Positions 1,438-63,999 of a DNA stretch of 64,000 nucleotides are shown here, piece after piece. Origin of the DNA: Simmondsia chinensis. Lineage: Eukaryota; Streptophyta; Magnoliopsida; Caryophyllales; Simmondsiaceae. The notes below the pieces were generated by a model. It ran no database searches, was not told where the DNA came from, and saw only the letters and a program-made list of their open reading frames with translations. The position numbers and the translations under genes were made by a program. Where the stretch lies: NCBI GenBank assembly GCA_018398585.1, contig JAGTTD010000015.1, positions 1,369,001-1,433,000 of the forward strand, read 5' to 3'. Position 1 is the first letter of the stretch. Every line of letters starts with the position of its first letter.

Positions 1438-1637
1438 TGTTAAATTTCACGAGCTCTTTTTAGGCCCGATCCACGAAGTTGGATCATACAAAATCATATA
1501 TAAGTCCAAGTGAGGTTCCATCCTAAAACCAATTACCAATAGGTGGAGTAACCCACTAAACTTATAAGGTAATCTCTTCTTTCTCACAACTCCAATGTGG
1601 GATTCTAATTACTAGGCTCACATGTGAAGTCTTAACA
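1438..1637 (+). repeat. LTR-like repeat, TG...CA ends, 5-bp target duplication
   Basis: A 200-bp unit begins TGTTAAAT and ends CTTAACA, flanked on both sides by ATATA (1433-1437 and 1638-1642). Internal landmarks are 'ataagtccaagtgaggttc', 'aggtggagtaaccca', 'acaactccaatgtggga' and 'ctcacatgtgaag'. TG...CA ends with a 5-bp duplication suggest a solo LTR of a small retroelement. It is the cleanest member of the family whose other copies form the extra introns at 39.8 and 47.8 kb. Confidence 0.7.
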
Positions 1638-12850: not shown

Positions 12851-12882
<32 letters not shown>

Positions 12883-13229: not shown

Positions 13230-13340
13230 GAAATTGTTTACATCCATGGACAGGATTTGCACCGAGACCTCAAACTTCATGAGAGTCAAAAGCTTATAGT
13301 GTCTTACCATTTGAGCCAACAAGGACAATGCAAGCGATTG
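13230..13340 (-). repeat. tRNA-derived SINE segment, repeated in each MADS unit
   Basis: Read on minus it has 'ttggctcaaatggtaagaca' (A-box-like) and 'ggtgcaaatcctgtcc' (B-box-like). Counterparts lie near 16880-17000 and 20500-20830, so the insertion predates the tandem duplication. Confidence 0.45.
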
Positions 13341-13927
13341 CTTGGCATCCATAAATTATAGGAAAAAATTACATATTAGTATCCTGAAATTTAGTGTATT
13401 AATTTTTTAGTCTACAAATTTTATAAAATATTATTTTAGTCCAAAAATTATATATATTTAATAATATATTTATCAAAAAATTTTAGTAATATATTTCAAA
13501 CTGCAGTGTGTATGGTGTAAATTATGCCTCTCATCAACTCTTCTTCATTAGAAATGCCACAACATTGTTGTTCATGTGTGGGATGAGTGGAATAGCAAAA
13601 CGATGGTGTACCAACTAACAACAATAAGTTTTACATTCTTTCATACTGTTTTTTGGACTATTTTATTAAATATATGTAATTTTTGAACTAAAAAAAATAC
13701 ACCAAATTTTAGAGTACTAAAATATAGTTTATCTTAAATTATAAAGCCTTTCATTTGGCATGGCTAAAAATTTATATTTTATTATATATTTAATTAATAT
13801 TTATATTTTCAAAGAAAATATTAATATACATAAAAAGGTCATATTTTGAATATCTGCTTTGGAGCCTAAAACACTTAGGATCAGTCCTGGAGCCAACTTT
13901 TGGAGTTACGTATAGTGTCACGCCCTC

Positions 13928-13935
13928 TATATATA
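13928..13935 (+). promoter_or_regulatory. TATA box of MADS copy A
   Basis: TATATATA within 'ccctctatatatagcgca' lies 73 bases before the ATG. The same motif and spacing occur in copies B and C, so the core promoter was duplicated with the gene. Confidence 0.65.
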
Positions 13936-14000
13936 GCGCACAATACTACTGAAAGAACATAAGAGAAACCCGAAAAAAAATCCGAAGTAAAAGAAAAAAA

Positions 14001-14875
14001 ATGAAAATGGGAGGGAGAAAGAAGCTGAAGCTCACATTCATAACGAATGCGAATGCAAGAAAATCAACGTTCTCTAAGAGGGTGAAAAGTCTGCTTAAGA
14101 AGCTTGACGAACTCACCACTCTTTGTGATGTTGAAGGCTGTGCCGTGGTTTATGGGCCTCATGGGCCTGAACCCATTGTGGGCCCTAACCCGGTTAAAGC
14201 CCAACAAGTCATTACCCGATTTAGGTCCTTGCCAGTTTTGGACCGGACCCGTAAGATGTTTAACCAAGAGGACTACCTCAAGGAGTGTATTGCAAAGGTA
14301 ATTTTCTTTTTCTTTTTTGTTTTTTTTTTTTACAAAATAAATTGTTGTTTTTGATGTTTTAAAATTTATGAAAATATAATTTGTTGTTTTTTATTTATGG
14401 GGAAATGGGTAAATTATGTTTTAATACATGAAAGTATTTGTTAATTCATAAATTTTGTATTTAAATTTGGAGTCCCTTGATGGTGAGATAATATTTTAAT
14501 ATATGAAAGTATTTATTATTTCTTATCTTCAACTTTATATTTACCATGTTACTCAAATTATCCCAACAGGTTAAGCTACAAATTGAACGTGCAAAGGCGG
14601 ACAACCGAGAGGCGGAGATGATGCTGGCTCTAAACGACATCCTCATGGGCCGTCGCCCCGTGGCCAGCCTCACGATATCGGATACGGATGAGATCCGTCG
14701 CTTGATTGAACGCAGCATCACGGAGCTGGACCGAAAGTGTCAGGACCTTGGAATCGAACCCGAGGGCCCCGGACAAGCAGCAGTGGCGGCTGGCATGGCG
14801 ACCGGTGGTGGTGATGAAGGTCATAAATTTAACGGACTCCCATGGATGGGATTAGCAAAAGGTGCTAGTGGGTGA
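14001..14875 (+). CDS. type I (M-gamma, AGL80-like) MADS-box protein, copy A
   Basis: Two exons, 14001-14297 and 14570-14875 (intron 272 bp, GTAATT...CAACAG), give 200 residues. The MADS domain is at the N-terminus: 'GRKKLKLTFITNANARKST', 'FSKRVKSLLKKLDELTTLC', 'EGCAVVYGPH'. 'RKKLKL' and the 'YGPHGPEP' segment with downstream 'MFNQEDYL' are typical of the AGL80/PHERES group of nuclear DNA-binding proteins, known mainly from female gametophyte and endosperm. A helical region ('IERAKADNREAEMMLALNDIL', 'EIRRLIERSITELDRK') follows, probably for dimerisation. The second exon is notably GC-richer than its surroundings. Target genes cannot be read from the sequence. The ATG at 14001 aligns with that of copy B. 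Confidence 0.88.
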
Positions 14876-17036
14876 TAAATGTGTGGTGTGATCCACAATA
14901 ATAAGTTAATCGTGTTGAATTCGTGCTTGTTTTAAAATATGATAAAGTTGAGTCAAGTTTATGTCTGAATTAGGTTAATGTCGTGTTCGAGTTTTTTTCA
15001 ATAACGCTATGTCATGTTCTGGTTTGTTAGCTGTCGGTGGTTCTTTAAGATCACCTAGTCGTTATTTCTGTTAAGTGTTTCAGTTTGGTTCTCGTTTTAT
15101 CTTTAGGAAGTTTGATTTCGTGTTTGTGTGTGTTGTTTAAAGTTTTATGTTAAGAAGTAAAAATATAATAGTTTTGTGTTACTGTTATTTAATTGCAATC
15201 TTATGATTATTGGTAGACTGTTATATTTCTTTTGTTGAGTCGATTATACTAGTATAATTTTTCAAAACTGAGATTTTTTTATTTAAATTTAAACATCTTA
15301 ATATGTCAAAATACCTCGTGTTTTTCTTTTTAATTTTTCTAGATTAAAGTATATATTATTTATGCTTTGTTCTATTAAAATTCATATACATTTTTAAGCT
15401 ATTAGCGTGATTCTATGTCGTTATGGGCAATATAAGTTTGCTTGTTAATATATAGTATCACGACTATACTCAATTAATAATTAATTATCGATTGATATGC
15501 ATACAATAAGTATTCCATATTCATTCATGTTTTCAACAACGGATATAATTGTTTTAACGAGCTTAATACGCTCAACAATGAACATAACTGTCATAACGAA
15601 CCTAATAGGCTCCTCATAACTTCCTCTAAAATCCTATTTATTAGTAGATGACAACACTCATTTTCATATTATAATGATCATAATTGTAGCTAGAAGTGTA
15701 AGTGAACCGAACGTTTGATAAAAACACAAATATTGAAATTAAAAATTAGTAATTTTTGACAGATTCATTGTACTAGATGCGAGTTACACAATAAAAACAC
15801 AAACATTGACCCTATTTAAGCCAGTCGTGATCTGACCGTTGAAAGTTCTCATCGCCAATTCAACAATATTAATTTTATTGTAGGACCAAATTGACAATTG
15901 TAAATTATACATGGACTAAACTTGATACAATAAGAAGTATAATGAATTAAATTGATACAATGAATAAAATATAGCACATGTGGTGTAAATAACCATTAGA
16001 TACAATTGTTTTTGTTAGTATTGTAAAAATTAGTAAAAAATATTGTTCGTGTCCATGTTTTTCGAGTAAGCGTGTTGTGTCGTTAGCTTTACCGCACATT
16101 GACTAGTCCTCGAATTGCATGTACCCCGCTTTCACAAGTTTTTTGACGTATAATAAGATAAGTTTGGATTTATAGCATTTGTAGGCGCCCATAAGAAATT
16201 GTTTACATTGAATGGCAAGATCTACACCTGAAACCTCATGCTTAATGGGATGTCAGGATTAACCTCATGCTTAATGGGATGTCAGGATTTTAAGTACTTT
16301 ACAATTTAAGTCAACCATTTTTGGTAAATCTTGAAATAATTTATTGTCAGATAGAAATTTATCTGTAATAGTTTCCTTTCTTTTAGGACCTATTTGATCA
16401 AACTTGTTTAAAAAAAATAATAATAATAAAATTATATATATATATATATATATTTTTTTTTTTTCGATTGGAAGGTAATGTACCTAAAAAGGAAAGTGCT
16501 TTTAAATTAAAGCAGACATTTTTTTTAAGTAGAAGTAGAAAAATAGTACTTTTCCTTTAAATTAAAACATACATTTTTTTTTCCTTTTAAATTGTAAATA
16601 CATTAAATTGACATAATTAAAAGATTCACGAAATAAATTCACACAACATGCTAAGTATTAGAAATCTATTATCCAAATAACTGTAGATGTAATTAGCATT
16701 TGTTGTTATTTTACAAATTAATAAAAATACTCTCGTTGTCCAAGGTTTTTGATAATCGAGGTGTATGGTCAACTAGATCAGCTCAACTAGATTACTCTTT
16801 GGATCGTATGCAACCGGCAGAGATATTGTCCGACGTATAATATGGTAAATTGGGGCATACAAATTCCATAGGCAACCGCAAGAAACTGTTTACATCCATG
16901 GACAGGATTTGCACCGAGACCTCAAACTTCATGAGAGTCAAAAGCTTATAGTGTCTTACCATTTGAGCCAACAAGGACAATGCAAGCGATTGCTTGGCAT
17001 CCATAAATTATAGGGGAAAATTATATATTAGTATCC

Positions 17037-17044
17037 TAAAATTT
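17037..17044 (-). other. no separate gene in the unit B spacer
   Basis: The open frames on minus around 16.8-17.3 kb cover repeat text ('tttggtgtactaattttt' and the tRNA-like segment) shared with units A and C. They show no conserved protein. Confidence 0.3.
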
Positions 17045-17536
17045 GGTGTACTAATTTTTTTGTCCACGAATTTTGCGAAAATAATTTTTTAGTCCAAAAG
17101 TTATATGCATTTAATAATATATTTATCAAAAAATTCCCAACTGCAGTGTGTATGGTGTAAATTATGCCCCTCATCAACTCTTTCTTATTTGAAATGTCAT
17201 AGCATTGCGGTTCGTGTACAGGATGAGTGGAATAGCAAAAGGATGGAGGGAGTACTAACAAACAACGACAAGTTTTACATCATTTCACATTATCATTTGT
17301 AGTGCTTTACTAATATATGTAACTTTAGAGTGTTGAAATGTAATTTATCCTACAGTATAAAGTCTTAGGCAATAGCCATAAGTTTCTATTTATTATTTAT
17401 TTAATTAATATTTATAATTTTAAAGAAAATATTAATATACATAAAGACCATATTTTAAATATCCACTCTGCAGCCTAAAACTCTTAGGATCAGCCCTAGA
17501 GCCAACTTTTGGAGCTACATACAGTTTCACTCCCTC

Positions 17537-17544
17537 TATATATA
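17537..17544 (+). promoter_or_regulatory. TATA box of MADS copy B
   Basis: TATATATA in 'ccctctatatatagcgca', 85 bases upstream of the ATG, matching copy A. Confidence 0.65.
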
Positions 17545-17621
17545 GCGCATACTACTGACGAGAAAACACAAGAGAAACTCGAAAAAACACTCGAGTAAAA
17601 GAAAGAAAAGAAGAAAAAATC

Positions 17622-18822
17622 ATGAACACAGGAGGGAGAAAGAAGTTGAAGCTCGCATTCATAACGAATGCGAATGCAAGAAAATTGACATTCTCTAAAA
17701 GAGTGAAAGGTCTGCTTAAGAAACTTGATGAACTCACCACTCTCTGTGACGTTGAAGGTTGTGCCATTGTTTATGGGCCTCATGGGCCTGACCCTATTGT
17801 GGGCCCTGACCCGGTTAAGGCCCATCAAGCTATTGCCCGGTTCAGCTCCTTGCCTGCTTTAGACCGGACCCGTACGATGCTTAACCAGGAGGACTACCTC
17901 ACGGAACGTATTGCTAAGGTTAATTCTTTTCTTTTTTTTTTTTGGCACAAAAATGTTGTTTTCTCCAAATATTTTATTTTTTTTTTAACTTATGGAAAAT
18001 GAGTAAGTTATGTTTTAATATATGAAAGTATTTGTTTATTCGTAAATTTTGTTTTTGAGTCCCTTGATAATGGTGAAATAATATTTTAATTTAACCGTCT
18101 GTGATTCTTTAACTGGTTTTTACAAAAAAAGTGATATCATATGCTGGAAAGGTGACTTTGTATAACAGAAATGTGATTTCACCCTTCAGATTTTGAACCA
18201 ACAAATTATTTCGCGTTAATTGGTGGACCAATGCATTGTTATGTACAAAAATATTCGTGAACTGAAATATAAAATCAACGTAGGGTACTAAAGTGTAATT
18301 AAACTGAAAAACATTAGACAGGAGAGAGAAAAACTATTTCCTTTAACTGGAGTGTATGGGTTAGATTTTCATCTGTTAAATTGTACGTTATCACTAACGA
18401 ATCTTCAAAAATTATTGAAATACATTTTTCTAAGCGCCTCACATATGATACATTTTCCTAATTTATACCTTTATTATGTCTACATCGACATATTATTTCT
18501 TATATTTAACTATATATTTATTGTGTTATTTGAATTATCCCAACAGGTTAAGATGCAAATTGAACGGGTGAAGGCGGATAACCGAGAGGCGGAGATGATG
18601 CTGGTCCTAAACGACATCCTCACGGGCCATCGCCCCGTGGCCAGCCTCAACCTATCGGAAACCGATGAGATCCGTCGTTTGATTGAACGCACCATCACGG
18701 AGCTGGATCGGAAGTGGCAGGACCTCAGAATCGAACCCGAGGGCCCCGGCCAAGCGGCGGTGGCGGCTAGCATGGCGCCCGGTGGTGGTGATGAGGGTCA
18801 GAAATGCAAGGGACTCCCATGA
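17622..18822 (+). CDS. type I (M-gamma, AGL80-like) MADS-box protein, copy B
   Basis: Exons 17622-17918 and 18547-18822 (intron 628 bp, GTTAAT...CAACAG) encode 190 residues. The protein parallels copy A: MADS domain with 'FSKRVKGLLKKLDELTTLC' and 'EGCAIVYGPHGPDP', then 'IERVKADNREAEMM' and 'DEIRRLIERTITELDRKWQDL'. It stops ten residues earlier than A because an earlier TGA follows 'CKGLP'. The intron is longer than in A; the extra part (about 18090-18490) is partly matched in copy C, so A probably lost it. Reading frame, splice sites and core promoter look intact. As a recent tandem paralogue it may be redundant with A. Confidence 0.87.
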
Positions 18823-20585
18823 ATGGGGTTAGCAAAAGGTGCTAGTGGGTGATACATATGTAGTGTGATCTACAGTAATAAGTTAATCGTGTTGAATTTG
18901 TGTCTATCTTAAAATATTACAAAGTTGGGTCAAGTTTATGTTTGAATTTGGTCATGTCGTGTTCGATTTTTGTTTAAATAACTTTGTGTCATGTTATGGT
19001 TGGTTAGTCTTAGGTGGTTCTTTAAGGTCACCTAGTCGTTATTTCTGTTGAGAGTTTCAGTTTGATTGTTGTTTTATGTTTAGAAAGTTTGATTTTGTGT
19101 CTGTGTGTTGTTTAAGGTTTTATGTTAAGAAATAAAATTGTGATATTATTATTACAAGTAGACAATTATATTTCTTTTGTTGTGTAACATTATAGAAAAA
19201 TTTCTTAATAATTGAGATTTTTCTTTAGATTTGAACATCATGATGTGTCAAAAATATTATATATTTTAAGATATTAGCTTGATTATATGCCGTTTTACGC
19301 AATATAAATTTGCTAGTTGATAGTATCACGATGTACTTAATTAATAAATGTCTATAGATTGATATATGCATATATTCTATATAATAAGTATACCATATTC
19401 ATTTCTGTTTTCAACAAGGAACATAACAGTTGTAACGAACTTAATAGGCTCAACAAGGAACACAACCATTATAACGAACCTAATAGGCTCCTCATAACTT
19501 TCTTTAAAATCCTATTTATCAGTAGATGACAACATTCCGTTTCATATTATTAATGATCATAATTGTAGCTAGAGGTGTAAGTGATCCGAACGTTTGATAA
19601 AACACAAACATTGACCCAATTTAAACTAGTCATGATCTGACCATTGAAAATTCTCATCGTCAATTCAACAATATTAATTTTACTGTAGGACCAAGTTGAC
19701 AATTTTAAATTATACATGGACTAAACTTGACACAATAAAAAGTATAAGAATTAAATTAACACAACGGACTACCTGTGATGTAAATAACCTTAGGTATAAT
19801 TATTTTTTGTTAGTATAGTAAAAATTAGTAAAAAATATTGTTAGCGTCCATGTTTTTCGCATAAGCGTGTTGTGCTGCTAGCTTGACCGCACCTTGACTA
19901 TTCCTCGAATTGCATGCATCTCCCCTCACAAGTTTTTCAATCCATAATAGGATAAGTTAGGATCGATAGTATTCATTGGTGTCAGCAAAAAAAATTGTTT
20001 ACATTCAATGACAAGATTTGTATCTGAAACCTCGTGCTTAATGGGATGCCAGGATTTAAGTGCTTTACAATTTAAGCCAACCATTCTAAAAACGCCTGAC
20101 ATAATTTATTATAAGATAGAAATTTATCTATAATACTTTTTCTTATTTTAGCACCTATTTGACCAAATTTTTTCTTAAAAAAGTGTTTTTTTAGAATTTG
20201 AGGGTATTTTACCTAACAAGAAAAATGCTTTTAAATTAACTTTTATGTATAAGAAACAAATTCACACAATAAACTAATTATGAGGAATCTATGATGCAAA
20301 TTACCTTAGACGTAATTAGCTTTTGTCATTATTTTACAAATTAATAAAAATACTCTCGTCATCCAAGGTTTTTGGTAACCGAGGTATCCGTTCAACGTGA
20401 TGAACTCAACTGGATTACTCTTTGGATCGTACGCATTATACAGAGAAGTTGTCCTATATATAATATAGTAAATTGGGATCTATATCCATAGGCAGCCGCA
20501 AGAAATTGTTTACATCCATGGATAGGATTTGCGCCTAGACCTCACGCTTTATGAAATTCAAAAGATTCAATTGTCTTACCATTTG

Positions 20586-20792
20586 CATGGTCGGACATAA
20601 CCCCAAGCAACCCAAGCACCCACTTAGGGCCCCCGAATTTTAAGGGCCCCAGATTTTTGAAGTTGTAGTTGTTAAACTATTAATTCTTAGTATTAGTAAA
20701 TTTTATAGTCAAAATTATTATAATTTATAGTATATGAAGGGCCCCTTCTGAGAATTTTGCTTGAGGCCCCGGAAATGTCAGGACCAACCCTG
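20586..20792. mobile_element. hAT-type MITE with 8-bp target-site duplication
   Basis: A 207-bp insert is flanked by 'accatttg' at 20578-20585 and 20793-20800. Its ends are imperfect inverted repeats ('catggtcggacata' against the reverse complement 'cagggttggtcctgac'). The 8-bp duplication and CAGGGT-like ends point to the hAT superfamily. It breaks the tRNA-like segment that is intact in units A and B. The end 'ggggttatgtccgaccctg' at 60601-60619 is a second copy's terminus. Confidence 0.8.
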
Positions 20793-21208
20793 ACCATTTG
20801 AGCCAAATAGGACAATGCAAGCAGCTACTTGGCGTTCATAAGTTATAGGAAAAAAAATTATATATTAGTATTCTAAGATTTAGTGTATTAATTTTTTAGT
20901 TGACAAATTCTATAAATAATTTTTTAGTCAAAAAATTACAAGCATCTAATAAAGTAGTCCAAACCGCAGTGTGTAAGGGTATAAATTATGCCCCCTCATC
21001 AACTCTTTCTTTAGAAATACCACAACATTGTTGTTCGTATGTCGGATGAGTGGAATATCAAGAGGACAGTGGGATTGCCAACAAATCACGACAACTTTTA
21101 CAATATTTTACACTATTATTAGATTATTTTACAAAATACACGTGACTTTTGAAATAAAATATAATTTCATAAAAGTTTGAGGACTAAAAAAATAAAACCA
21201 AACTGTAG

Positions 21209-21345
21209 AATACAACAACAACAACAATAACAACAATCCCAGTGCCTCAAGGGCTCCCGCAAAAGCGCGGTCTAGGGGGATTGATGTACCTTTCAGGGTG
21301 TTAACCTGAAGAGAGGCTATTTCCGGGGACCCCTAACCTAAGAGA
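21209..21345 (-). repeat. headless SINE body, minus orientation, in unit C
   Basis: (CAA)n-type tail, 'cagtgcctcaagggctcccgc', 'gtacctttcagggtg' and 'gaggctatttccgg'. The block absent from units A and B continues to about 21510 with further sequence I cannot assign. Confidence 0.6.
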
Positions 21346-21766
21346 TATGTCCTCATTGCATCATGGTGACCTGTGAGCAATAGGGCATGAAAGCAAAAAA
21401 GTAAGCCATAGCATAAAATGAGCAATACAAAGCATAACACCCTAGAGGAGACTATGAGGTAAAACCTTCCCTTCAAGGCAGCTAGTATAAGCAAATATGC
21501 AAATAGGCAGATATTAGAGTCCTAATATGTAATTTATATTAAATTATAAAGTTTTTGGCATAGCCTTAAATTTCTATTTATTATGTATTTAATTAATATT
21601 TATAATTTTAAAGAAAAAGTTAATATACGTAAAAGACCATATTTTAAATTTTCACTCCAGACCCTAAAGCACTTAGGATTAACCCTGGAGTCAACTTTTG
21701 AAGTTACTTACAGTGTCACACTCCCTATATATATGTAGCGCACAGTACTGCTGAGAAAACACAAGA

Positions 21767-21870
21767 CGACAACAACAACAATCCCAGTGCTTCAAGGGCT
21801 CCCACAAAAACAGGGTCTGGGGGGTACATGTACGCAGCCTTCCCCCTTCAGAGTGTCAACCTGAAGAAAG
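21767..21870 (-). mobile_element. SINE inserted between TATA box and ATG of MADS copy C
   Basis: A 5'-truncated SINE body (CAA-type tail, 'cagtgcttcaagggctccc', 'gtacgcagcc') is flanked by perfect 14-bp copies of 'gagaaaacacaaga' (21753-21766 and 21871-21884). In copies A and B this sequence is a single leader segment, so the insertion postdates the duplication. Confidence 0.88.
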
Positions 21871-21929
21871 GAGAAAACACAAGAGAAACTCGAAAAAAAC
21901 ACTCGAGTAAAAAAAAAGAAAAAAAAACC

Positions 21930-22228
21930 ATGAAAACGGGAGGGAGAAAGAAACTGAAGCTCACATTCATAATGAATGTAAATGCAAGAAAATCGACGTT
22001 TTCTAAGAGAGTGAAAGGTTTGCTTAAGAAATTTGATGAATTCACCACTCTTGTGATAAGAGGTCTGCGCCATTGTTTATGGGCCTCGTGGGCCTGAATC
22101 CATTGTGGGCCTTACCCAGTTAAGGCCCATCAAGTTATTGCCCGGTTCAGGTCCTTGCCCGCTTCGGACCGGACCAGTAAGATGCTTAACCAGGAGGAGG
22201 ACTACCTCAAGGAACGCATTGATGAGGT
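21930..22228 (+). pseudogene. MADS-box copy C, frameshifted and truncated
   Basis: The ATG and the first 41 codons are preserved ('GRKKLKLTFIMNVNARKST', 'FSKRVKGLLKKFDEFTTL'). Small deletions at about 22050-22062, where A and B read 'ctctgtgacgttgaag', then shift the frame. Later DNA still matches the end of exon 1, including 'gatgcttaaccaggagg' and the GTAATT donor at 22229. Only the start of the intron follows; no exon 2 is found before unit homology ends. The TATA box (21726-21734) is also changed to TATATATATG. A full-length product is not possible. Confidence 0.85.
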
Positions 22229-26219: not shown

Positions 26220-31592
<5,373 letters not shown>

Positions 31593-33742: not shown

Positions 33743-40555
<6,813 letters not shown>

Positions 40556-40559
40556 GGGA

Positions 40560-42555
40560 CTTCAATTTTCTACAGGGGATGACTCTTTGTCACCTAATTT
40601 TCTAGTATATGTATAACGACCCAACCTAATACCATAACAACACAACCTATGCCGCAGAGCCGGGTGTCCCCAGTCACTCGAAAATTCTTGAAGGACAATA
40701 CTGATTTTTTACCACTTAGTAAAAAAAAAAAAAAAAAAAAAAATTTCCCCTATCGATTTTTGTGAATTTTCTATAAGACGGAAAATATTTTATGAAGTTT
40801 TGAACAAATTGTAGTGTAAATGGTTGTTTAATGTATCTATGTTTTACTGTATTTTTCTTGCTCAGTATTTCAAACTTGTTGTTTCTGTTCTTTTTGGTAA
40901 AATGCCCATATTTTGTAACTTTAGTCATCTTACTATAAGATTTTATATATTTAACTACCAGTGGCCCAACGAAAAAATTCTAGATCCGTCACCAATGGCT
41001 ATGGATGGGAAAGTCCCCGATTGAGTCTATAATGGATCACTTAACAACAAAAAGAATGAAATTGATCAAACTCTACACATCTATTCGACGTGGGTCTGGG
41101 GTTACAATATGTCAATTATCTTTATTGACAAGATGATGATGACTTTTCTTTCATTTTGGTTAAGGAAACTTTGAGCGGTCAAGCCCCGGTATGGACAGGA
41201 AGAATTGATGGTGAACGTTCTTATCAAGGCTTTGATTTTGTTATCCTCCACTTGTAGCTGTATGAAAATGTCCAGCACATAGATTACAGAGTGAAAGGTG
41301 TAAACGAGCCGAGCCAAGTTCGAGCTATACACGATATAGAATTAACTTCACAACATTCAAAATTCATTGAGCTTGGAGACTTTGACTTCACACTCGGCTC
41401 AATCTAGTTCACCTGAATCACACTCAGGTAGTTCAACCTGAATTATACTAATTGTTTAAACTCATTCAGGCTCGAGTTAGATTCTTTCATGCTTGTGTGT
41501 ACAAGAAATAGGGCAAATTCAGCTTTATATTAGTTGTACGTCCAAAGTACTGTTATGATTGTCTATTAGGTCCCCGTCGCATTATTAAGTACACATTTGA
41601 AGTTAATGGCATGGAATGAAGGAGAGGATACTAGATAGGTGGTCATATAACAGTTGCGTATACGGATGCAGGTGTCGTGGAGAAAATCCTGGTCTTTCTA
41701 AGGGAATTTGAGTTGCTTTTACGTCTTTTATTTGTATGTTTTGAATGAATACTCAAATAATTATTAACTTTTGCGCCTCTTTGATAGTTTTTAACGTGTA
41801 AATAGATTTATAAATTTGTTTTAGTGAACAAAATGCAATATAAGTACATTATGATGGTCATTGCGAAAGTACTATTATTTAGCTGATATCACAAAATGGC
41901 TAGCTCGAAATCTGCTATATAATGGTTGTCAGTTAACCAAAAATGCTTTATTTCGTTCGTTTGATTCAATGGTTAAGGTTGTGCTTTATTAAGCAATCAA
42001 ACTCTTTATTGCCATGGCCTGTCAGAACCAAAGAGAATTGTATCCAGCTTAATATCATAACAACATCTTTATCGTTTTAGGTAAACTGGTTCAATTTACA
42101 TGCACCTTAACTAATCATAGGTCTACATGCTTCGCTCACTTGGATATAATATTAGAACGAGCAAACATATACAGGCATTCGTATCTAACTAATCATAGGT
42201 CTACATGCTTCGCTCACTCGGATATAATAACTAGAACGAGCAAACATATACAGGCATTCGTATCCAGGCAGGCTTTCCCTGATGACTTAATGTTAAAAAC
42301 ATATTATGTTTGTGAAAAAGATACAAGAAGGATACAATGTTACTATACATGACACAAGGACATCATGTTTTGAAAAAAGAGCAAGAAAGCGACACATTTT
42401 GCAAAAAAGAACATCAACCACAACTTGAACTTCGAATCATGTTCTTTTGTTTAAACATGTTGCCTTATTCGCTGTTTTTCGTAACACGGTCTTATTATAT
42501 ACATAGTAAACATTGAGCCCTTTTCATTACTTTTTTTAAAATAATACCCTTCTAA
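40560..42555. other. intergenic between receptor kinases 2 and 3
   Basis: Contains an A-run (40722-40743), a GAGCTC-type repeat at 41290-41480 and a tandem duplication of 78 bp (42111-42188, 42189-42266). No gene is supported. Confidence 0.4.
42111..42266. repeat. 78-bp direct tandem duplication
   Basis: Two adjacent copies of 'ctaatcataggtctacatgc ... aggcattcgtatc' differ at only a few positions, so the duplication is recent. Confidence 0.85.
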
Positions 42556-42558
42556 CAG

Positions 42559-42662
42559 TACAACAACAACAACAACCCAGTCCTTCATAGAGGCTCTTGC
42601 CATGGCAGGGTCTAGGGGAAAGATGTATGCAGCCTTACCACTGCAAGGTGTTACCCTCCCTG
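42559..42662 (-). repeat. SINE body downstream of receptor kinase 3
   Basis: (CAA)n tail, 'agtccttcatagaggctcttgcc', 'atggcagggtctagggg' and 'gcagccttaccactgcaaggtg'. Minus orientation, no 5S head. Confidence 0.65.
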
Positions 42663-42722
42663 ACCTTAAAACATAATACCCTTGAAACAGTATTTATGCT
42701 ATATGTTTCAACGGCCACTGAT

Positions 42723-42780
42723 CCCGGACCCTGCCATTGCGGGAGCCTTTATGAGGCATTGGGTTGTTGTTGTTGTTGTG
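42723..42780 (+). mobile_element. very short SINE directly behind the stop codon of receptor kinase 3
   Basis: 58 bp of SINE 3' end ('cccggaccctgccattgcgg', 'gaggcattgggttgttg') lie between perfect 15-bp copies of 'tcaacggccactgat' (42708-42722 and 42781-42795). The right copy is the last five codons of the kinase, stop included. Confidence 0.9.
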
Positions 42781-45700
42781 TCAACGGCCACTGATAGATG
42801 TAACAGAAACCATATTTACAGAAGAGAAATGCTGATCAGCAGAATCAGTTTCTGAAGCAAAGTGGCGCAGAGCAAAGCCAGGCTTGTTTGGGTGGGGGAG
42901 TAGAGAGATTTCACCAGTAAGCATAGACATAACAGTTGAAATACTAGGCCTATCTTTAGCAAATTCTTGGACACACAGTAACCCCACTTTGATGCACCTT
43001 ATTATCTCTGCATGGAAGTTTGGTTCAGATATTGTTGGATCTATCAGTGTCACTATATTGCCCTCCTTCAGTAGTTTCCATGCCTGATACCACAATCAAG
43101 AAAGATAGAGAGCTTGAGCCAATTTATCAAATCATTTGTTCGGGAAATAGCAAAGAACTGGGTTTGATTTAGATGTGAAGGAACAAATCTAAAAGAAACT
43201 GAGAAGAGAAGAGAGAGAGAGATAAACAATAGTATATAGATTTATGGTGAAAACCCTCAGATTGAGGGAAGACCATCATCGGAGGAGAAAGCAATCCACT
43301 AACGATTTCAAGGAGGGGATACAGCAGGATGTTGCACAAAACAATATAACATAATACATATAGATAGAGGCTGAAACCACACATAGATCTCTCTAAATAG
43401 GTCTATTGGGTTGATGGACCCAGCCCTCCATTATCACTATAGATCTCTGGTTCTAAATCAAGACATAAATTTGAGTCACAACACAATGTATTCTTAAGCC
43501 TTCACCTAATGGCTTTAGCTTTTAGGATAGTTGGTTCCTTAACATGGTATCAAATCTTCTTTGGCTGAGAAGCCTGATGTTCCAATCACAACCACCCTTA
43601 TTCTCCATATTAATATGATTCAAGTACAAGGTATGAAGCCACATGTGGTGATCCACACTTGAATGTAACGTACAACAAATTTGGTTCGAGAATATGAAAT
43701 TTTATTGGGTCCTTGGTAGAATTGAGATCCATATATAAGTTTAAGAGATGTTTTGTTCTGAAACTACCTCTCATTAGATGGTGTATCTCACTAGGCCTAT
43801 AAGGTGTTTTCTTCTTTATCGCAACTCTTATATGAGACTTTGTTATTAGACTCGCATATAAAGGCGCAGAAAAGTTTGATGCTAAGATAATGGGACTTAC
43901 GTATCCTGTTAGGCTTAAGGATTGCTCTTCATGCCAGAAGCTGCTAGTCTTTTTCCCGCTTATGATCTCCAATATCAGTACTCCAAGGCTAAAAACATCC
44001 GACTTTTCTGAGAATCTCCCTTCCATTGCATACTCAGGGGACATGTAACCGCTGCAAATCAATTCAGATTTTAACTTAAATATCGAAAAGTTTGATAGAG
44101 ACTCATTAAAGGCTCTATGAGAGTTCATTAAGGGCTCGATAAGAATTAGGTAGAAAGACATTACGGGATAGTTAAGAACTCGTCAACAGTTAATATTAGC
44201 TCAAAAATTGGTCGATAATAGCTTAACTCGCTGGCGAGCCCAGCTCAGTTATGAACTCGATTTGGCTCGATAACGAGCTTAAGTCACCTTGATTAGGTTA
44301 GCTAGTTGAGCCAAGCTAAGTAACGAACAAATTAAAATCTTATCGAATAAAGCTTGAATAAAGGTTTGAATGCTCGATAAGGGCTTAGCTTGAACTCGTG
44401 CTCAATAAGGCTTATCGAGCACAAGTTCAAACAAGGGGTGCTCGACTCGACTTGACTTGTTTACAACCCTACCGGTATGGCAAAATGATGTCATATTAAG
44501 AATGCCGAAAATGGTATATATTAAATATCCCCTCCTTTCCTTACAGTTTTAGTATTGAAGTGATATCATGATGTATCAGGATGAATAGGAATGAGAACCC
44601 AAAGGTTGCTCTAATGGTAAGATATTTGGACCAGACACCGCCAAGTTTGGGCTATGAATCCGGTCATTGGTTCGCAAACAATTTCTTGGGTCCACCACCG
44701 GGTTTGTGGACTCCAAATTACCCACTACTTGTAAGGGAACTCCTAAGTGGGCGATGCTTGAAACCCGGTATTAGCCGAGATATGCATAAGTTGTCCTGAA
44801 CTTCTAGTTAAGAAAAAAGTAGGAGTAAAGGAAACTATGTTCCAACAACTCTTCTGGTGTCAGCATGATCCTGGGAGTCCCAAAACATCCTTGCCATGCC
44901 AAAGTCTGAGATTTTAGGGGTGAGGTGTTCATCCAACAAAATGTTGCTTGCTTTGAGGTCTCTATGTATAATCTTTAATCTTGAATCTCTGTGTAGATAA
45001 ATTAGCCCTCTACACACTCCTTCCATGATGTTGAAGCGTTTCTTCCAGTCCAAAAGTCCTTTTCTCATCGGATCTTCATTTGCAGACATAACGGTCAGAA
45101 ACTGTCTAGGGATGATCCCTAAAGTTTAAACTATTAGGTGAAGGTAGCATACATAGTACACATGTCCACTTCATACTTTGTGCTTAAATTAAAGTAATAT
45201 GACGAGTAGGAGCTAGTGGAGCTTGAGCTTGAAACGTCGTAGTCCAAGAGGCTCTATAATCATGTTAAAATCGACTATTAGAAAAGTTTAAGCTATTAGG
45301 TGAAGGTCTAGAAATAGTTTCATACTATAATAGGATTTTTACTTGCTTGAATGACATAGTGAAATCATATAATGAGGCTAACAAATGAAAAAGAAAAATG
45401 AATCACCCTTCAAAAAAGTGTTATTTCTTATCAAAGTGATTCAACAATTGGTTGGATAGCAGCTCTCTCGAGTTCAATACGCGTTTCAAACTCAAATGTG
45501 ACCTTGAACTATGGAATGGTATTTTTGAGTCTGACAAGTTAATTATTTTACACATACGTGACTATGATTGAAATGTGCTGAAGAGAAGCTAATGAAATGA
45601 TTAAATATGCCATGGATATAAACAATGTCATGAGATTCTATTGGAATCCCACATGACTTCGCTATGTTAATATAATCTAACTTATATGATGAGAACATCT

Positions 45701-46395
45701 CCCTCTTAGTACGACAATTTTTAAGATGGAGTTAAGTTTAATATCCTCTGATAGATGGTTACCTGATAGGAATGCGTCTAAGCTTTTATTTGGCATGTAT
45801 TCATAAACCAACATCTTGTCTTCAGCTGTTATGCAACATCCTAGAAGTCTGACAAGATTTCGGTGCTGAAGTTTAGAAATGACCATCGTTTCATTCATGA
45901 ACTCCTCCACGCCTCGTGTGGAGGCTCTTGAAAGTCTTTTTACTGCTATTTCTTGGCCATTTTCCAATTTTCCCTGTAAAACATGATAGATTATTCATTT
46001 TATATTGGCTAATACAGTGAAATACCAATCTTCCAATGCAACAACCCAGTAGATTGGCTGAAGTGGTAAAGCACTTGGACCTGGTGCCTTATAAAGCTTC
46101 AGGTTTAAGGTCTGAATCTTACCATTTGGTGCTCCCTAGCCCTTGGAACCAACCCAGTAGGTTTGTGGCCTCTAACTTACCCTTCTGTATGTAGAAAAAC
46201 TTACGGATGACTACGTACGCAACCCAGGAATTAGTCGAGGTACATGTAAGTTGAGCAATTTGAGTCCTATCTTTTGATGCTTACAATTCTTTGGTGCAAG
46301 CCTACTGGTTCCGTGATCCTTAACTTACCTTATTGCATGTAGGAAAACTTTCAAGGGGTTAAATGAGCAAACCAAGGATGAGTCAAGGTGCACCT

Positions 46396-46440
<45 letters not shown>

Positions 46441-48600
46441 CTTGGCATGTAACCATTACCCAATACACTGGACCAAAGCCACCTTGGCCAAGCTTGTTAC
46501 TTCGATCAAAGTTATTTGTTGCAGTTGCCAACTGCTTAAAATCAAATAATGGTAGCTCTTCCACTTTGGCTGCTTGTGTCGTTTCATCTCTGAACATATC
46601 TGATGCCCTTTTCTTCCTCTCATTTTTCTCTTCTGCAAAGATTTAAGTGTTTAGGATTCAATTCTAGAGAGATTTCATTCAATGAATTAGCTTTTCTTTT
46701 ATGATAGATTACCTCTGCTTCGAGCCAACAAACGCCATAGGAAGTAAATGAAGGCAGCAAGTGCCAGTGCTCCTAAAGTTCCCACCACAGCAGAAATTGT
46801 TCTTACTTTACTTTTACCTGTGAATCTCAAGGAAATTGTTAAAGATTTCACATGTGAATCTAGGAACAAAATCTCATATATGGGTTGTGATGCGACAAAG
46901 AAGAGACCACAATAGAACTCTAGTGGGTTACTCCACTTGATGCCAATTGATTTTGGAATGAAACCTTTGTTATGCTTATACGCGGACTTCACATAACGGC
47001 TGAATGAAATTTCATAGAGATCTTAATAAGTTTTCTTGATGCAGATAGGAAACAAGAAGGTAGAACACTACTTAGGTCTAGACCTAGTGTAGGAGGTTCC
47101 AAGTTCGAATCCCCCGACCCTGCTTAACGCGAATCATATAGAGAAGAAACTAGGTCTAATACCCAGCTCGGAACGGGCCAGACGAACATAAAGATCAACT
47201 CCTCCGATGTGGAACTCTGCTATGTCAATAAAAGCTCTGCTCCATGTCATACATCCAGCACCAGTATCATAAGCATAAGCTAAACATGAACAATTCTTCA
47301 AACACTGCATCCTACATGAGTCTTCATCAGATCCCATTAACCACTCAGCATGGTCAGGAACCTTCATCCTCTTCAGTTTCAAAAATCCATCTTTGCCACA
47401 CTGCAAGTTTGTCCTCCTTACACACCCACTAGTCCATTTCCCTTTGCTCCATTCTTCCCTATTCTTCGGCTCGAACCCATCAAGACAACGACAAATTGGG
47501 GTCTTTTTGGAGTTGCAGACTCCAAAAAGACCACAAGTTCCATAAACATCGCACACTGTTTCAGGGGCCCAGTACTCAACTTCCCAGTTTCTTTTACCTT
47601 CATCCCAGTATATTTGATGAGAAGTCCCATCATACTGCACTGCATAGTTTGACAATAAGGACTTGTTTGGATAGAAATATGTTAGAGAGATTGTGCCCTT
47701 TCGATCATCGTCAACGACAGTTTGAGCATTGATGAAATCAGGAATATCATACTGCACTCCAATGAATATGTTACCTGAGAAGAAAAAAAGCCACTTATGA
47801 GTTTAATAATGTGTTATGTATTAGAGTTTTGACAAATAAGAGATTGGCATATAAGCCTAGCAGATCACTCCAACTAAAGATGAAATTTCACTTAGGGACC
47901 TTATATACCAAGTCCATGAGAAGCTTTGAGCATGATAAAACTTGACATTACCGTTCCAAGGACCCGCTCTCCAGTGAGGCCGATCACCATCCCAGACAAC
48001 AAGCTGAGGGAGAATAATTGAATCAAACGCAGCTGTGAATCTCCCCTCAGATGGATCTGAAGGGCTCTGCCAAGATGTTAGGACATTTCTCGTCTTAGAA
48101 TTCTTGGTTCCTGTGATCTTCATGTTTGGCAACAATGAGTCTGTGATATGATCAAAGCTCTGCCATATGACTGTCCCATTTTCGCCAGAATTTATGGGGT
48201 TGAATCCTAACAAAACGAGGTTCCCAGAATCAAAAAGATGCGCAGTTGAGACATTAAAGGCAGAATTTGAAGTATTTGATGACCAAACAATCTCATTGCG
48301 CCCGCTCAAGATCTGAAGATTGCCATCCTTGGAGATTCTAATCACCCCAGAGTAAGAATCATTTAGAGGATTATTGCGGTTCGCTACCCATATGACATTC
48401 ATTACAGGCTTGTTGAACCAGATACCGACGTAGCGTTTGGTGGAGTTAGTAGGAGTGAAGAAGCCTAGTTTAAAAGTGCCATTACTAGACACTATACTTG
48501 CAGGATCTTTGAGGGGTTGAGAAGATGAAATGATGTCAGTGGCAGAGCCAAATATGAACGTTGAGGAGCAAAGGAAGATTAGAAATTTGATAAGAGTCAT
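42781..48600 (-). CDS. S-domain receptor-like Ser/Thr kinase 3, with an extra LTR-derived intron
   Basis: Eight exons on minus: 48600-47952, 47774-47163, 46817-46713, 46632-46460, 45973-45763, 45073-44836, 44051-43901, 43083-42781; 813 residues. Signal peptide, bulb lectin ('[11 protein letters not shown]', 'VWSSNTSN'), '[16 protein letters not shown]', EGF-like and PAN cysteines ('[17 protein letters not shown]'), a membrane span, then a kinase with '[10 protein letters not shown]', Lys525, 'HRDLKASN' with Asp622 and DFG near 640. A 177-bp intron (47951-47775) splits the ectodomain codon for Gly in 'WNGN'; it is another insertion of the LTR-like family, at a different site from kinase 2. The donor after exon 6 is weak (GTTTCC), and 'VYW' replaces the usual 'VYK'. 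Otherwise the gene looks functional. Confidence 0.86.
43495..43620 (+). repeat. TRIM-like fragment with PBS in intron of receptor kinase 3
   Basis: An LTR-like end ('aggatagttggttccttaaca') is directly followed by 'tggtatcaaatc', close to the tRNA-Met primer-binding sequence. Plus orientation. Confidence 0.5.
43690..43890 (+). repeat. diverged LTR-like repeat in intron of receptor kinase 3
   Basis: Shares 'atataagtttaagagatg', 'attagatggtgtatctcac', 'taggcctataaggtg' and 'gactcgcatata' with the family at 1438-1637. Opposite strand to the gene. Confidence 0.5.
44590..44817 (+). repeat. tRNA-derived SINE in intron of receptor kinase 3
   Basis: A tRNA-like head ('ggttgctctaatggtaagat', 'ctatgaatccggtc') is followed by a body with 'gggtttgtggactcc' and 'attagccgagatatgcataag', then an A-rich end. 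The body matches 46130-46265 and 46283-46405. Confidence 0.5.
45115..45335 (-). repeat. TRIM-like element in intron of receptor kinase 3
   Basis: Decayed LTR pieces ('aaagtttaaactattaggtgaagg', 'aaagtttaagctattaggtgaagg') flank an internal block with 'actttgtgcttaaatt' and 'caagaggctct', as in the other TRIM-like copies. Confidence 0.45.
46045..46405 (+). repeat. tRNA-derived SINE plus a second body fragment
   Basis: 'ttggctgaagtggtaaagca' and 'ggtctgaatcttacc' form a tRNA-like head. The body 'aggtttgtggcctctaac' to 'gaggtacatgtaagttg' is followed by a partial second copy (46283-46405). It lies in the intron between kinase exons and ends near an AT repeat (46408-46437). Confidence 0.5.
46837..47005 (-). 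repeat. LTR-like repeat in intron of receptor kinase 3
   Basis: Same family and same orientation as the two exonic insertions: on minus it ends 'cacatgtgaaatctttaaca' and is followed by ATTTC, which also occurs at its start. It lies in the ancestral intron before the transmembrane exon, so it made no new intron. Confidence 0.55.
47776..47947 (-). mobile_element. LTR-like repeat forming a new intron in receptor kinase 3
   Basis: The insert begins TGTCAAG and ends CTTCTCA (TG...CA) with a perfect 5-bp duplication GGTAA (47952-47948 and 47775-47771). It contains the family core 'agttggagtgatctgctagg' and 'cttatat'. The donor is G^GTAAT from the first duplication; the acceptor is CA of the element plus G of the second. 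Kinase 1 has the uninterrupted target 'ggaacggtaacat'. Confidence 0.82.
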
Positions 48601-48670
48601 TGTTTATAAGAGTATGATCCTTAACTGAGTAGTGTTATGTGCATATAGCATTGGATCATGGGAAGCAAAC

Positions 48671-48677
48671 TTATATA
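48671..48677 (-). promoter_or_regulatory. TATA box of receptor kinase 3
   Basis: TATATAA on minus, about 71 bases before the ATG. Confidence 0.5.
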
Positions 48678-48729
48678 GAAGCATGAGACATAGTTAGAGA
48701 ATAACATACTATTACAATCGCTTGAACTG

Positions 48730-49250
48730 GGAGCAGGGATGTTAACGAACCAAACATTCGATGAACCGCTCGTGTTCTAAATCGATAAGGGTTCATTATG
48801 TTCATTTTAGGGGCTCAATTGCCTACGGAACAAGTCCAAGCAAGCTTGATAAGCTTAACGAGCCAAGTTCAAACAAGGGTGTGCTCAACTCGTTAACATT
48901 CGCAAATGGTTTAAAAGGACTCGTTAACGGCTTGTTAAGGGTTGGAATCAAATGGCTCAACAAAGATTCCATAGTAACTGGAACAGCTCAGCTTAGTAGT
49001 GACCATAACTTGATAGCAAGCTTGACTAAATTATGAACTTTTGTTGGCTTGATAACGAGCATGGTTCAATTCGATAACTAGCTAAGCTCGACTCAATAAT
49101 GAACTCGGCTCGGCTCAATTTGTCTGGCAAGGCAAGTCGAGCTGGCTACCAAATGCCCTAATACCTTATTGTACCAAGATCGAAAAAGGGTTCAAAAGCT
49201 TGAACAAGGGGATTCTCAGCTCAATTTGGCTCATTTACAACCCTAATCGA
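48730..49250. repeat. GAGCTCG-rich dispersed repeat upstream of receptor kinase 3
   Basis: Repeated 'gcttgataagcttaacgagcc', 'ggctcggctc' and 'gataacgagc', ending 'ggctcatttacaaccc'. The same family occurs at 44.2-44.48 kb, inside this kinase gene. Confidence 0.45.
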
Positions 49251-55600: not shown

Positions 55601-58600
55601 AATATTATATATGTATCTTATTAGCTATAAGTTTACAAATAAAATCAGAGGCATACAAATAAAGAAGCATAATGAATAACAACTTTTACACGAATGCCAG
55701 ACAATAAAAGCGAGGGTATGTACCAGCCACATATAAATTAGGATCACCACAGAAAATGCCTATTCTACAACCTACTTTCAAACATCTATTTGTCTTAATT
55801 TCGGCCTCATATGCATAACTATCAATTACTTGTTGTGAAGGGAAGTATTATACATACTCTTCAACCAAATCCCGATAAGAGAATTCAAAGGAACTAACTA
55901 CACCAAAAGCTTAGGTTATTAGGCCAAGGGTCAAGAATAGTTTTATTTGTGACATGTCCCCTCACAAGAATGTGTACTAGACATGAAGCACGAATAAAGT
56001 GCAGGCTCATTTAATACTTTGTGCTTAAGCTGTACTGATATAATTAGAGGTGACTATTGAGATTTAAACTCAACACCTCTCAGTCAAAGAGACCTTGAAC
56101 TATATCAAGGAACCAACCATGAACTATCCTAATAGCTTAAATTATTAGGTGAAAGTTCAAGAATGATTTTATACTCTAACAAAAAAAAAAAACAATTCAA
56201 GTATGATTTTGTACTTTAACAAGAAAAACAATCAACTAACTAGGGCTAGTTGATTTGAAAATATAACTAGCTGGTAAAAGTAATCCAAAACTTGCTAGGT
56301 CCACCCACGTATACCGAACCCTAGAGGGGGAGCAATAATACTCCACTATATACAACAATGTTTACACTTACACTTAACCATCCACTACTAATTCTACATG
56401 TTCTCCCTCTACCAATACCAGATACAAAAGGACCCTATTCATAAGGCTCTATAAACATACTAGACACAAGAGTAGGGATAGCAATGGGGGTAAAACCAGC
56501 TACCCACGGGTACCTGCCCCAAAGAGGGCAGGTAGTGGGTACGGGTTAGGTGTACCTACCCCGTACCCGTCACGGGTATGGGGCAAGTACGGGTATAATT
56601 TTGTACCCGCCCTGCCCCGCTCCATACCCGCCCCTCCTCACCCCACCTCATACTCGCCACACCCGCTTCATTTTGTATATAGTTAACCTTCAAATTAAAA
56701 AATAAGTGTTTAAATTCAATAATCCAAATTGTTTATCAATGTTATAAGAAAAATATAATTAATTTTTAAAAATATTAGTAAATAACTAATATAAGCGGGT
56801 ATAGATAATCATTTTTAAGCACATCAGGGAGGGTATGGGGCGGGTAATGGATGCCCGTTGGATACCCGCGGGTAATGGGGCGGGTACGGATATGGGTTTG
56901 TACCCGCCCCGGGTATCAACTTCATATCCGTCGCAGGTAATGGGGCTGTTCGGGTATAGGATTTGGGTCGCGGGTACGGAAATGGAGGAGGCACCCCCCG
57001 TATCTGCCTCGCCCCGCTCCATTACCATCCCTACACAAGAGGACTTTATTTAAAGGCCTCTATGGTCACCTTATTTATACAACCATATAAAATTCTGGAT
57101 ATAAATTGGCTGTTTCAGTAGACCATCGGTCTCCAAATCTTAACAAAACTAACGTCTATACTGAGAAAATCAAAAGAGGAGTCACTTAGGTCAAAAGATG
57201 GCTAGCATCTCGTAGAGGTACAAGCTACGTTAAACACCAAAGTTAAGAAAAGACCACACAGATTCGATCGTTGATGCACTATCAAAGTTCAATTTCGTGA
57301 TGAAAATTTGACTGCACACGACCAACTCATCATAATTAGGGCATTAAGTGACAAAACCTACCAGAATTGGCGGTAATGAACGGCTATGAAACTAATTCAT
57401 CAGAAATGCGACAAAATAACTGACAGCACAGGGAATAATCAAGTTCATAACTCAAAAGTACAGCTTGCAATACTTTAAACTTACACAAATTAAACACCAA
57501 AGTCGAAAAGAAAATTTGATCACATAAATGAAATTGTTAAAAAAAATGCTTTCACCTGTAAAGCCTTATTTAGTTACCAAGAAGTAAGTATAAGAAATCA
57601 GAATTTAATGAGAAGTGAGCATTCGTCCTCTTATTTGGTTATTAGAAGAACTAAATAGCGGAAATTCTTAGCAATTTACAATTTCTTTAAAACACAGGAA
57701 ATAACTTACCTAACTCTAAGTCGTAATTCATTTATTTTTACCTAGCCTCTAGGAAGCTCTATTTCTCGACTCGGTAACCAAACAATTTGTACCTAATTCC
57801 TAGAAAGTAGATACAGGAATAGAATTCCTAAAAAATATAACTCTCGGTATGAATCCAATTCATATGCTAACTGGCCTAAGAATTCAATAAAAACATCAAT
57901 AATACACGAGAGAAGTTCCGATAATCACAATCATATCAAAAAATAGAACACGAAAACAGAGAAATGAAATATTACACGAAGTAGACAACGGTCACCATTA
58001 GAGTGCAGGCCTTCAATGAGTGTGACAAGCAGATTTCTTCAGTAGAAACTCGCAAAATATGTAAATGGAAAAGAAAATTTAATCATACAGATCAAATTCC
58101 TACAACCTAACGGTTTCAATAGTAACAATTCAATACAAACAGCAACAACATCACAATCAGATCAAACAACTCCGAAAAGAGCACAGAAACAGAGAAATGA
58201 AAGACTACACGATGTAGATTACGGTCGCCAATAGAGTGCAGGCCTTCAGTGAGCGTAATTTGCAGATTTCTTTAGTAGAAACTCGCAAAATATATAAATC
58301 GAAAGGAAATTTTGATCATGCAGATCAAATTCCTACAAATGCTTCCAAAAGTAACAATTCAGTACAAACAGCAATAATATCACAATCAGATCAAGAAACC
58401 TCAAAAAGAACTCGGAAACAGAGAAATGAAGAATTGACGATGTAGATTATGGTCGCCATTAGATTGCAGGCCTTCAGTGAGTGTGACTAAGCAGATTTCT
58501 TTAGCTCAAGCTCGCAAAATATATAAATTGAAAGGAAAAATTGATCATACAGATCAAATTCCTACAAACATACGGCTTCAACAGTTACAATTCAATACAA

Positions 58601-62474: not shown

Positions 62475-63999
62475 TTACATACATAAAAGAATTTCATACA
62501 CTTTCTCCAATAAACACCCCACACACGGGGTTATCTCAACTAACACATGAGACCTAACCGAGTCCGAGCAAAGCTTAAACTTCCTACTAGGTAGAAACTG
62601 AGTGAACATATCTGAGAGGTTATCAGCAATGCCAATCTTCTTCTTCTCTGAATTGGCTCTTGACACATTAACTGAACTAGTCACCTGCTGCTGAACTGTG
62701 TTACTTAACTGAACTCCTTTTGACTTACTCACCTGACCTGAATCACAAACAACTAATGATATCTTCTGTGGAGACAATAACAAAGACTCGCCAAACGTGA
62801 CACGTCTACTCGTCAGGAATTGCTTGAAGCGAAAACCTTTCTGCTTCCCATAAAGCCCTTGTTCACATAATATCAGTCTTGTAGACTGACCACACAAAGA
62901 GCCCCTCACACTGTGCTCAGACAGACCCCAATCACCTGAATGATCCAATCTCAAACGTCCTAAATTTGTGATTTCTGGTTTTGTCAACAACAAGGATGAT
63001 GAAGATGCTGCAACAGATCTAACAACTGTGGAACCGACAAGCTTATACAAAGTACTTAACCTTTTGCCCTTCATAACTGTCAATGCACCCTTAACGATCC
63101 TCAAAACTCCACCTTTAGCTGTGTACTTGTATCCTTTAGACTCAAGAGTACTTAAAGAGATGAGATTCTTCTTCAAATCAGGAACATGGTGAACATCGCT
63201 CAAAACCCTGATAGTGCCATCGAACATCCTAAAACGAATTGTTCCTATACCCAGAACTTTGCATGAAGTATCATTACCCATCAAAGCAACTCCACCTCGA
63301 ACTGACTCACCAATCTCGATTGGGACAGACATGATAGGAGCAACCCGAATCCAAAATCCAACACTAACTACTATGGATCTCTGGTCAGACTTGTTATCTA
63401 CTTCAAGTTTTCTTTTAAGCTTGTAACAGTCTTTCTTAATGTGCCCTTTCTTATGACAGTAGTTACAGATTAGGTCTCGATACCTAGACTTAGACTTGCT
63501 TCTACTATGATCATACTCAGTTCTCCCCCTCACAAATAAACCACTACTTGAGCTATTCACAGAACCAGATAATTTCCTATCTACTCGTTCTTTACTCAGT
63601 AGGTTTCTCTTAACTTCATCAGCAGATATGGTTTGTCTACCACCATAAATCATACTTTCAATAAAACCCTTATATGAAGTAGAGAGAGAACATAACAACA
63701 ACATTGCCTGATCTTCATCCTTAGGAACATTATCCAATTATTTCAAATATTGAATAATTGAGTTAAATTCATTGACGTGATTCTTAAGTGGCGTACCTTC
63801 TGACATACGAAACGTGAACAATCGGCATTTAACTGCGAGTTTGTTAGAGACAGACTTGAAATAAAACATATTCTGTAATTTCTCCCACAACTCCTTAGCG
63901 GTCTTCACTTCCAAAACTTCTGTCAAAACGTCATCGGTAAGACACATCTGAATTGCTGTGAGTACCTTCTTATCTAACTCCTCCTATTGTGCTTCTGTC
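62475..63999 (-). pseudogene. decayed Ty1-copia polyprotein with large internal deletion
   Basis: On minus, a gag-like segment ('AKELWEKLQNMF') is interrupted by a TAA at about 63738; an earlier TAG lies near 63985. The CCHC zinc knuckle 'CNYCHKKGHIKKDC' (about 63468-63427) follows. In the protease region the expected D-S-G is replaced by shifted sequence. The gag-pre-integrase signature 'VHHVPDLKKNLISL' is then clear. The integrase core and reverse transcriptase are missing, and the frame runs into 'ADNLSDMFTQFLPSRKFKLC', which resembles the RNase H C-terminus. The 5' part lies beyond the window. Confidence 0.85.

Follow-up and report, generated by a model that had tools for sequence, protein, structure and literature searches.

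Introduction

Introners with 5' splice sites derived from a target-site duplication (TSD), e.g. those of Symbiodinium microadriaticum (Gozashti et al. 2022, PMC9860276), are among the closest described systems to the locus reported here. According to the excerpted text of that paper, none of the introners detected among 3,325 surveyed genomes came from land plants, and introner families were retained only if they comprised at least four highly similar introns. The inserts considered here, which lie in two neighbouring receptor kinase genes of a flowering plant, are like the Symbiodinium introners, as these are excerpted (PMC9860276), in that the donor would come from the target duplication and the acceptor from the element, with mRNA length unchanged; the present elements bring all of the 3' splice site but its last G. 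They differ in that introner families are, in the same excerpts (PMC9860276), mainly described as DNA-transposon-like, whereas the ends found here are LTR-like. Furthermore, the intronic family copies in the window, i.e. the whole 64-kb stretch of DNA that was analysed, number only two and are 56% identical, below the four-intron criterion.

Introns born from transposable elements are known from plants, with examples from Zea (Ds; Giroux 1994) and Oryza (catalase; Iwamoto 1998) in the excerpted list of Yenerall and Zhou 2012 (PMC3443670); a CACTA transposon spliced from a MYB gene of soybean, as described in an excerpt of PMC4219821, is a further plant precedent. Here, likewise, a transposon would have created an intron in a plant gene, but in the present case one family is involved twice, at different codons of neighbouring paralogues, and the splice logic is shared. 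The Zea and Oryza examples are reportedly single cases each.

A third point of comparison are the SMART/TRIM elements, very short LTR retrotransposons that are enriched in and near genes, lie in introns, UTRs or exons and have altered gene structures (excerpts of PMC3281118, PMC4717578). The family described here is also short, and differs in showing no paired units in the window. The excerpted SMART/TRIM accounts (PMC3281118, PMC4717578) describe no coding insertion that was precisely turned into a new intron, and among the matches listed from the literature on LTR/TRIM elements and introns, which were available as excerpts, we recognised no case of a plant coding exon in which a solo LTR is spliced out as a new intron. 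What appears to be new is that a single LTR-like family would have given rise, under one rule, to introns at two codons in plant paralogues that lie next to each other.

Host genes

The window contains three S-domain receptor kinase genes, termed K1, K2 and K3, whose models were assembled manually on the basis of GT-AG sites and open frames:

26220..31592, plus strand: K1, S-domain receptor kinase, 7 exons, 830 aa, with neither extra intron
33743..40555, minus strand: K2, S-domain receptor kinase paralogue, 8 exons, 815 aa, hand-built model
42781..48600, minus strand: K3, S-domain (G-type lectin) receptor kinase, 8 exons, 813 aa, hand-built model
48600-47952, 47774-47163, 46817-46713, 46632-46460, 45973-45763, 45073-44836, 44051-43901 and 43083-42781, minus strand: exons of K3

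All three frames are open throughout. Pfam covered the ectodomain pieces, with B_lectin, S_locus_glycop and PAN_2 found in those of exon 1 in each gene, and the kinase motifs were read directly in the translations. K1 has six introns; K2 and K3 have the corresponding six, as judged by eye from translations and phases, plus one extra each, the extra intron being the insert in the ectodomain exon. In pairwise comparison, codon identity is 62.3% of 802 for K2–K3, 62.1% of 813 for K1–K2 and 57.2% of 810 for K1–K3. As a side observation, the glycine-rich loop segment of K3 ends in a Trp (VYW, 46460-46462), where both K1 and K2 have a Lys (VYK).

The inserts in K3 and K2

The inserts and their surroundings comprise the following features:

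47948..47952, minus strand: upstream GGTAA copy at K3, its first G the exon end and its GTAA the predicted 5' splice site
47776..47947, minus strand: K3 element, 172 nt, LTR-like, TGTCAAG...TTCTTCTCA, in the acceptor-giving orientation
47771..47775, minus strand: downstream GGTAA copy at K3, its first G (47775) completing a CAG acceptor and its GTAA opening the next exon
47775..47951, minus strand: predicted phase-1 intron of K3, 177 nt, GTAATG...TTCTCAG
39974..39807, minus strand: K2 element, 168 nt, a clear family copy between GGTAC duplications
39806..39978, minus strand: predicted phase-1 intron of K2, 173 nt, with GGTAC duplications at 39979-39975 and 39806-39802

On the minus strand K3 thus reads TGGAACGGTAA, then the 172-nt element, then GGTAACATATTC, and the insertion point is the Gly codon of WNGN. 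The predicted splice, G^GTAATG...CTCAG^GTAAC, takes out 177 nt and restores GGAACGGTAACAT, a sequence that is present uninterrupted in K1; the homologous stretch of K2, GGAATGGCAATAT, is uninterrupted as well. An earlier, sequence-only reading of this DNA had described the K3 insert by its 172-nt length, position, TG...CA ends and perfect GGTAA duplication, all of which we find again, and the sequence likewise shows its predicted donor, G^GTAATG, and its predicted acceptor, TTCTCAG^GTAAC. It was also right that the target is unbroken in K1, which reads TGGAACGGTAACATT, and that K2, reading TGGAATGGCAATATC, lacks an interruption at the K3 insertion site. In the alignment, 26 codons separate the extra intron of K2 from that of K3, the former being the upstream one. 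Both putative gains split a GGT glycine codon in phase 1.

The spliced ectodomain of K3 matches solved structures of SRK8 (6kyw; E 1.9e-71) and SRK9 (1.3e-64), and its alignment with SRK8 has no gap at the new junction. A structured RNA in the K3 intron was considered and rejected (fold z-score -0.53, with 64 of 200 shuffles equally or more stable), and 42000-49000 contained no Rfam match at the gathering threshold.

The repeat family

A family profile was built from five copies and searched across the window, which holds six clear members, i.e. the K2 and K3 inserts and four further copies, besides partial matches:

1438..1637, plus strand: family copy with ATATA duplication and TG...CA ends, from profile and flanks
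34990..35185, plus strand: family copy with GTAAC duplication, antisense within the older K2 intron 35267-34446
43693..43866, plus strand: family copy with decayed 3' end, antisense within the older K3 intron 43900-43084
46837..47016, minus strand: family copy with flanks ATCTC/ATTTC (4/5), oriented as the intronic inserts, within the older K3 intron 47162-46818
36579-36670 (36.6 kb), minus strand: partial family copy, 31.9 bits, E 3.4e-9, within the older K2 intron 36819-36409
53.3 kb, minus strand: partial family match, 20.6 bits, E 9.9e-6
54.0 kb, minus strand: partial family match, 15.3 bits, E 0.0004

The copy at 46837-47016 stops 19 nt short of the exon that follows intron 47162-46818 and may have altered the branch point region there.

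That the K3 insert is related to these copies had been proposed from the letters alone, with an alignment to the family suggested as a check, and this alignment points to a significant relationship. Against the K2 insert the local score is 52 (5000 shuffles: mean 23.1, maximum 42), and leave-one-out nhmmer finds the K3 insert with 32.5 bits (E 2.3e-9 in the window; matched stretch 47899..47791), whereas only 49 of 1000 shuffled sequences were reported at all, the best of them with 3.1 bits. The element ends in the leave-one-out test are a few bases off those of the pairwise-alignment and flank tests. The remaining five copies score 65.2 (K2), 98.2, 86.2, 81.2 and 73.9 bits, and the best shuffled score across all six tests (1000 shuffles each) was 9.1. 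When 1472 window positions, with both strands counted, were scanned against the K2 insert, eight scored at least as high as the K3 insert; all eight overlap family copies, one of them being the K2 insert itself. By these scores the K3 insert is the weakest yet clearly a member of the family. It is also the most divergent of the six copies, with 87 of 143 positions identical to the leave-one-out family consensus (61%) and 56 of 143 different. A single pattern for the family core gave 0 exact matches in viral and 0 in prokaryotic contigs, as expected for plant DNA.

Nature of the inserted unit

Duplications of 5 bp together with TG...CA ends are the mark left by LTR integration. The 5-mers flanking the elements are identical in all five positions in four of the six copies (GGTAA, GGTAC, ATATA and GTAAC), so that the family has the target duplication of 4–6 bp that is expected of an LTR unit. 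When flanks of different copies were paired as a control, perfect matches occurred in 0 of 30 pairs at fixed boundaries and in 1 of 30 with a slip of 1 or 2; the control with slip is to be preferred, since the duplication was taken into account when the starts of the K2 and 35.0-kb elements were set. Matches of at least four occurred in 2 of 30 pairs at fixed boundaries and in 6 and 7 of 30 with slip. The two remaining copies (43.7 kb and 46.9 kb) have flanks that agree in four of five positions, and since such agreement is also reached by some mismatched pairs and the 3' end of the 43.7-kb copy is decayed, these two cases are weak evidence.

Duplications and ends, either TG...CA or TA...CA, fit LTR integration, and it is on the 5-bp duplications and the TG..CA/TG..TA ends that an LTR identity rests. 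As all six clear copies are single units, the family unit is likely, though not proven, to be a solo LTR. It would lie antisense to the transcription of its own parent.

The alternative with the most to be said for it accepts both gains as real and takes the unit for some other small non-autonomous element, MITE-like or of unknown type, that also makes 5-bp duplications. Among the matches in the window there is neither an internal region nor a PBS nor a partner unit, and the TG...CA pair of ends is found in the K3 and 1.4-kb copies only, the other three copies with an intact 3' end (three of five; K2, 35.0 kb and 46.9 kb) starting with TA rather than TG, i.e. TA...CA as read in this orientation. 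Against this stand the combination of 5-bp duplications and TG...CA ends, which in general is typical of LTR integration, and the aligned ends of the inserts, in which no long terminal inverted repeat is visible. On balance, we regard a non-LTR unit as a real but lesser possibility.

Splice sites and predicted removal of the inserts

A matrix for scoring splice sites was derived from the 18 introns conserved among K1–K3, and for the scoring of each of these the intron in question was omitted from the matrix. The K3 donor reaches 6.39 (11th of 20; conserved donors range from -2.57 to 9.41) and the K3 acceptor 11.69 (first of 20), while the K2 sites are moderate, with 5.15 for the donor TGG|GTACTA (16th of 20) and 4.73 for the acceptor (15th of 20). 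No other GT or AG tested scored as high as the predicted pair in either insert (12 GT and 10 AG tested in K3, 9 and 9 in K2); the closest rival donor, with 6.03 as against 6.39, is another GT that precedes the K3 donor by 36 nt. GTAATG, the donor hexamer of the K3 insert, is shared with K1 intron 2 and with one of the conserved introns of K3 (46459). As read from the sequence, both inserts have the introner-like design of a 5' site from the target duplication and a 3' site at the element end. That K2 and K3 share their splice logic had already been pointed out in the sequence-only reading and agrees with what we find: in both, the duplication would provide the donor, and the acceptor would be formed by the end of the element together with the duplication's first G. 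A separate observation concerns the conserved K3 intron with its donor at 44836: this donor (ATA|GTTTCC) has the lowest of the 20 scores, -2.57, and its K2 counterpart is ATA|GTAAGT; the intron is a candidate for alternative splicing.

On this basis the K3 and K2 inserts are presumably spliced out as introns. If the K3 insert were instead unspliced or poorly spliced, K3 would be a recent pseudogene or would encode a truncated B-lectin protein of about 247 aa, since read-through of the insert runs into a stop after ...SSLVGVIC, 29 residues beyond WNGN. The intact frame alone rules out only neutral decay beyond about 3–5%: in simulations with substitutions only, a neutral K3 frame remains free of stops with a probability of 0.17 at 2%, 0.018 at 5% and 0.0005 at 10% divergence. 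For K2–K3, dN/dS is low, at 0.266/1.187 (NG86) or 0.271/1.32 (YN00), but with dS above 1 and with time before the insertion averaged in. What speaks against an unspliced insert is that both sites are the best of those tested in and around it and lie within or above the range of conserved sites of the genes, that K2 independently has the same arrangement and is also open throughout, and that the insert would be old, provided its 61% identity to the consensus measures the time elapsed since insertion. Should even a small part of that divergence postdate the insertion, K3 has been kept, and the insert must be removed; the dating argument is weaker, however, in that this copy, the most divergent one, may partly represent a separate subfamily instead of being old. 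Taken together, we consider a failure to splice improbable, and splicing remains the reading that we prefer.

Probable history of the two introns

The K2 and K3 inserts are each absent from the other gene, and K1 is without both, which makes two gains the simplest history; each insert, moreover, has its own duplication (GGTAA in K3, GGTAC in K2). As K2 is about equally close to K3 and to K1, this argument is not based on a tree. In the sequence-only reading, the two paralogues had gained separate introns from the same source. This holds at the level of the family; a single source copy would go beyond what the 56% identity of the inserts (149 aligned columns) supports. That the K3 intron is ancestral, was lost in K1 and K2 and only later received the element is hardly credible: other family copies do lie within older introns (35.0, 43.7 and 46.9 kb), but the flanks in K3 closely match uninterrupted K1, and with the element making up 172 of the 177 bases of the intron and the duplication the rest, no older intron sequence is left. 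The K2 and K3 introns are best read as two independent gains, each through an LTR-like unit, probably a solo LTR, that inserted at GGT.

Other features of the window

A different short repeat family lies at 6095-7218, in pairs 221–222 nt apart, where GCTCTGATAC(C/T)AT.. adjoins TTAA(G/T)GAA..; we take this motif to resemble a primer-binding site beside an LTR start, possibly of a TRIM-type element. Weaker pieces related to this repeat lie at 45.3, 55.9 and 56.1 kb; no repeat family was found in 55700-56400. Three similar stretches follow each other in tandem at 12194-22051, about 3.6–4.3 kb apart, one with an SRF-type (MADS) domain (17559-18002). The minus strand also carries a U-box/ARM (plant U-box) protein (4163-5578, 471-codon open frame) and a Copia-type polyprotein fragment (Pol_BBD; 62475-63737, 420-codon open frame). 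This gene content, with S-domain kinases, a U-box/ARM protein, a MADS-type domain and a copia polyprotein, points to a flowering plant as the host.

Discussion

Overall, we consider it highly probable that the K3 intron arose from an LTR-like unit inserted at GGTAA, and the K2 intron separately from a unit of the same family at GGTAC. According to this proposal, an LTR-like unit, probably a solo LTR, of a family that is old and dispersed would have entered the K3 coding sequence at GGTAA, with the 5-bp duplication placing G|GTAA on both sides of the element. The upstream copy of the duplication would then supply the donor to the spliceosome, while the pyrimidine-rich element end ...TTTTTTTCTTCTCA and the first G of the downstream copy would together form the CAG acceptor. 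The 177-nt insert could thus leave as a phase-1 intron, and the K3 mRNA would regain exactly its former sequence. The K2 intron would have a separate origin from another family copy, at GGTAC, by the same rule: the duplication would have to begin with GGT, its first G both ending the exon and completing the acceptor, and its GT serving as the donor.

The origin of new introns in multicellular lineages that are rich in introns is an unsettled question. With two independent gains in neighbouring paralogues, both from one family, it becomes testable whether a flowering plant has an introner-like family. More tentatively, and with the odds rather against it, such a family may exist as an LTR-derived unit whose end comes close to a full 3' splice site when read in one orientation, and insertions thus oriented at GGT would yield precise introns; many more would then be present genome-wide, all at GGTNN and all in this orientation. 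With two independent gains, one family and a simple rule, i.e. one orientation and a duplication starting with GGT, the question of intron origin would become testable in one genome.
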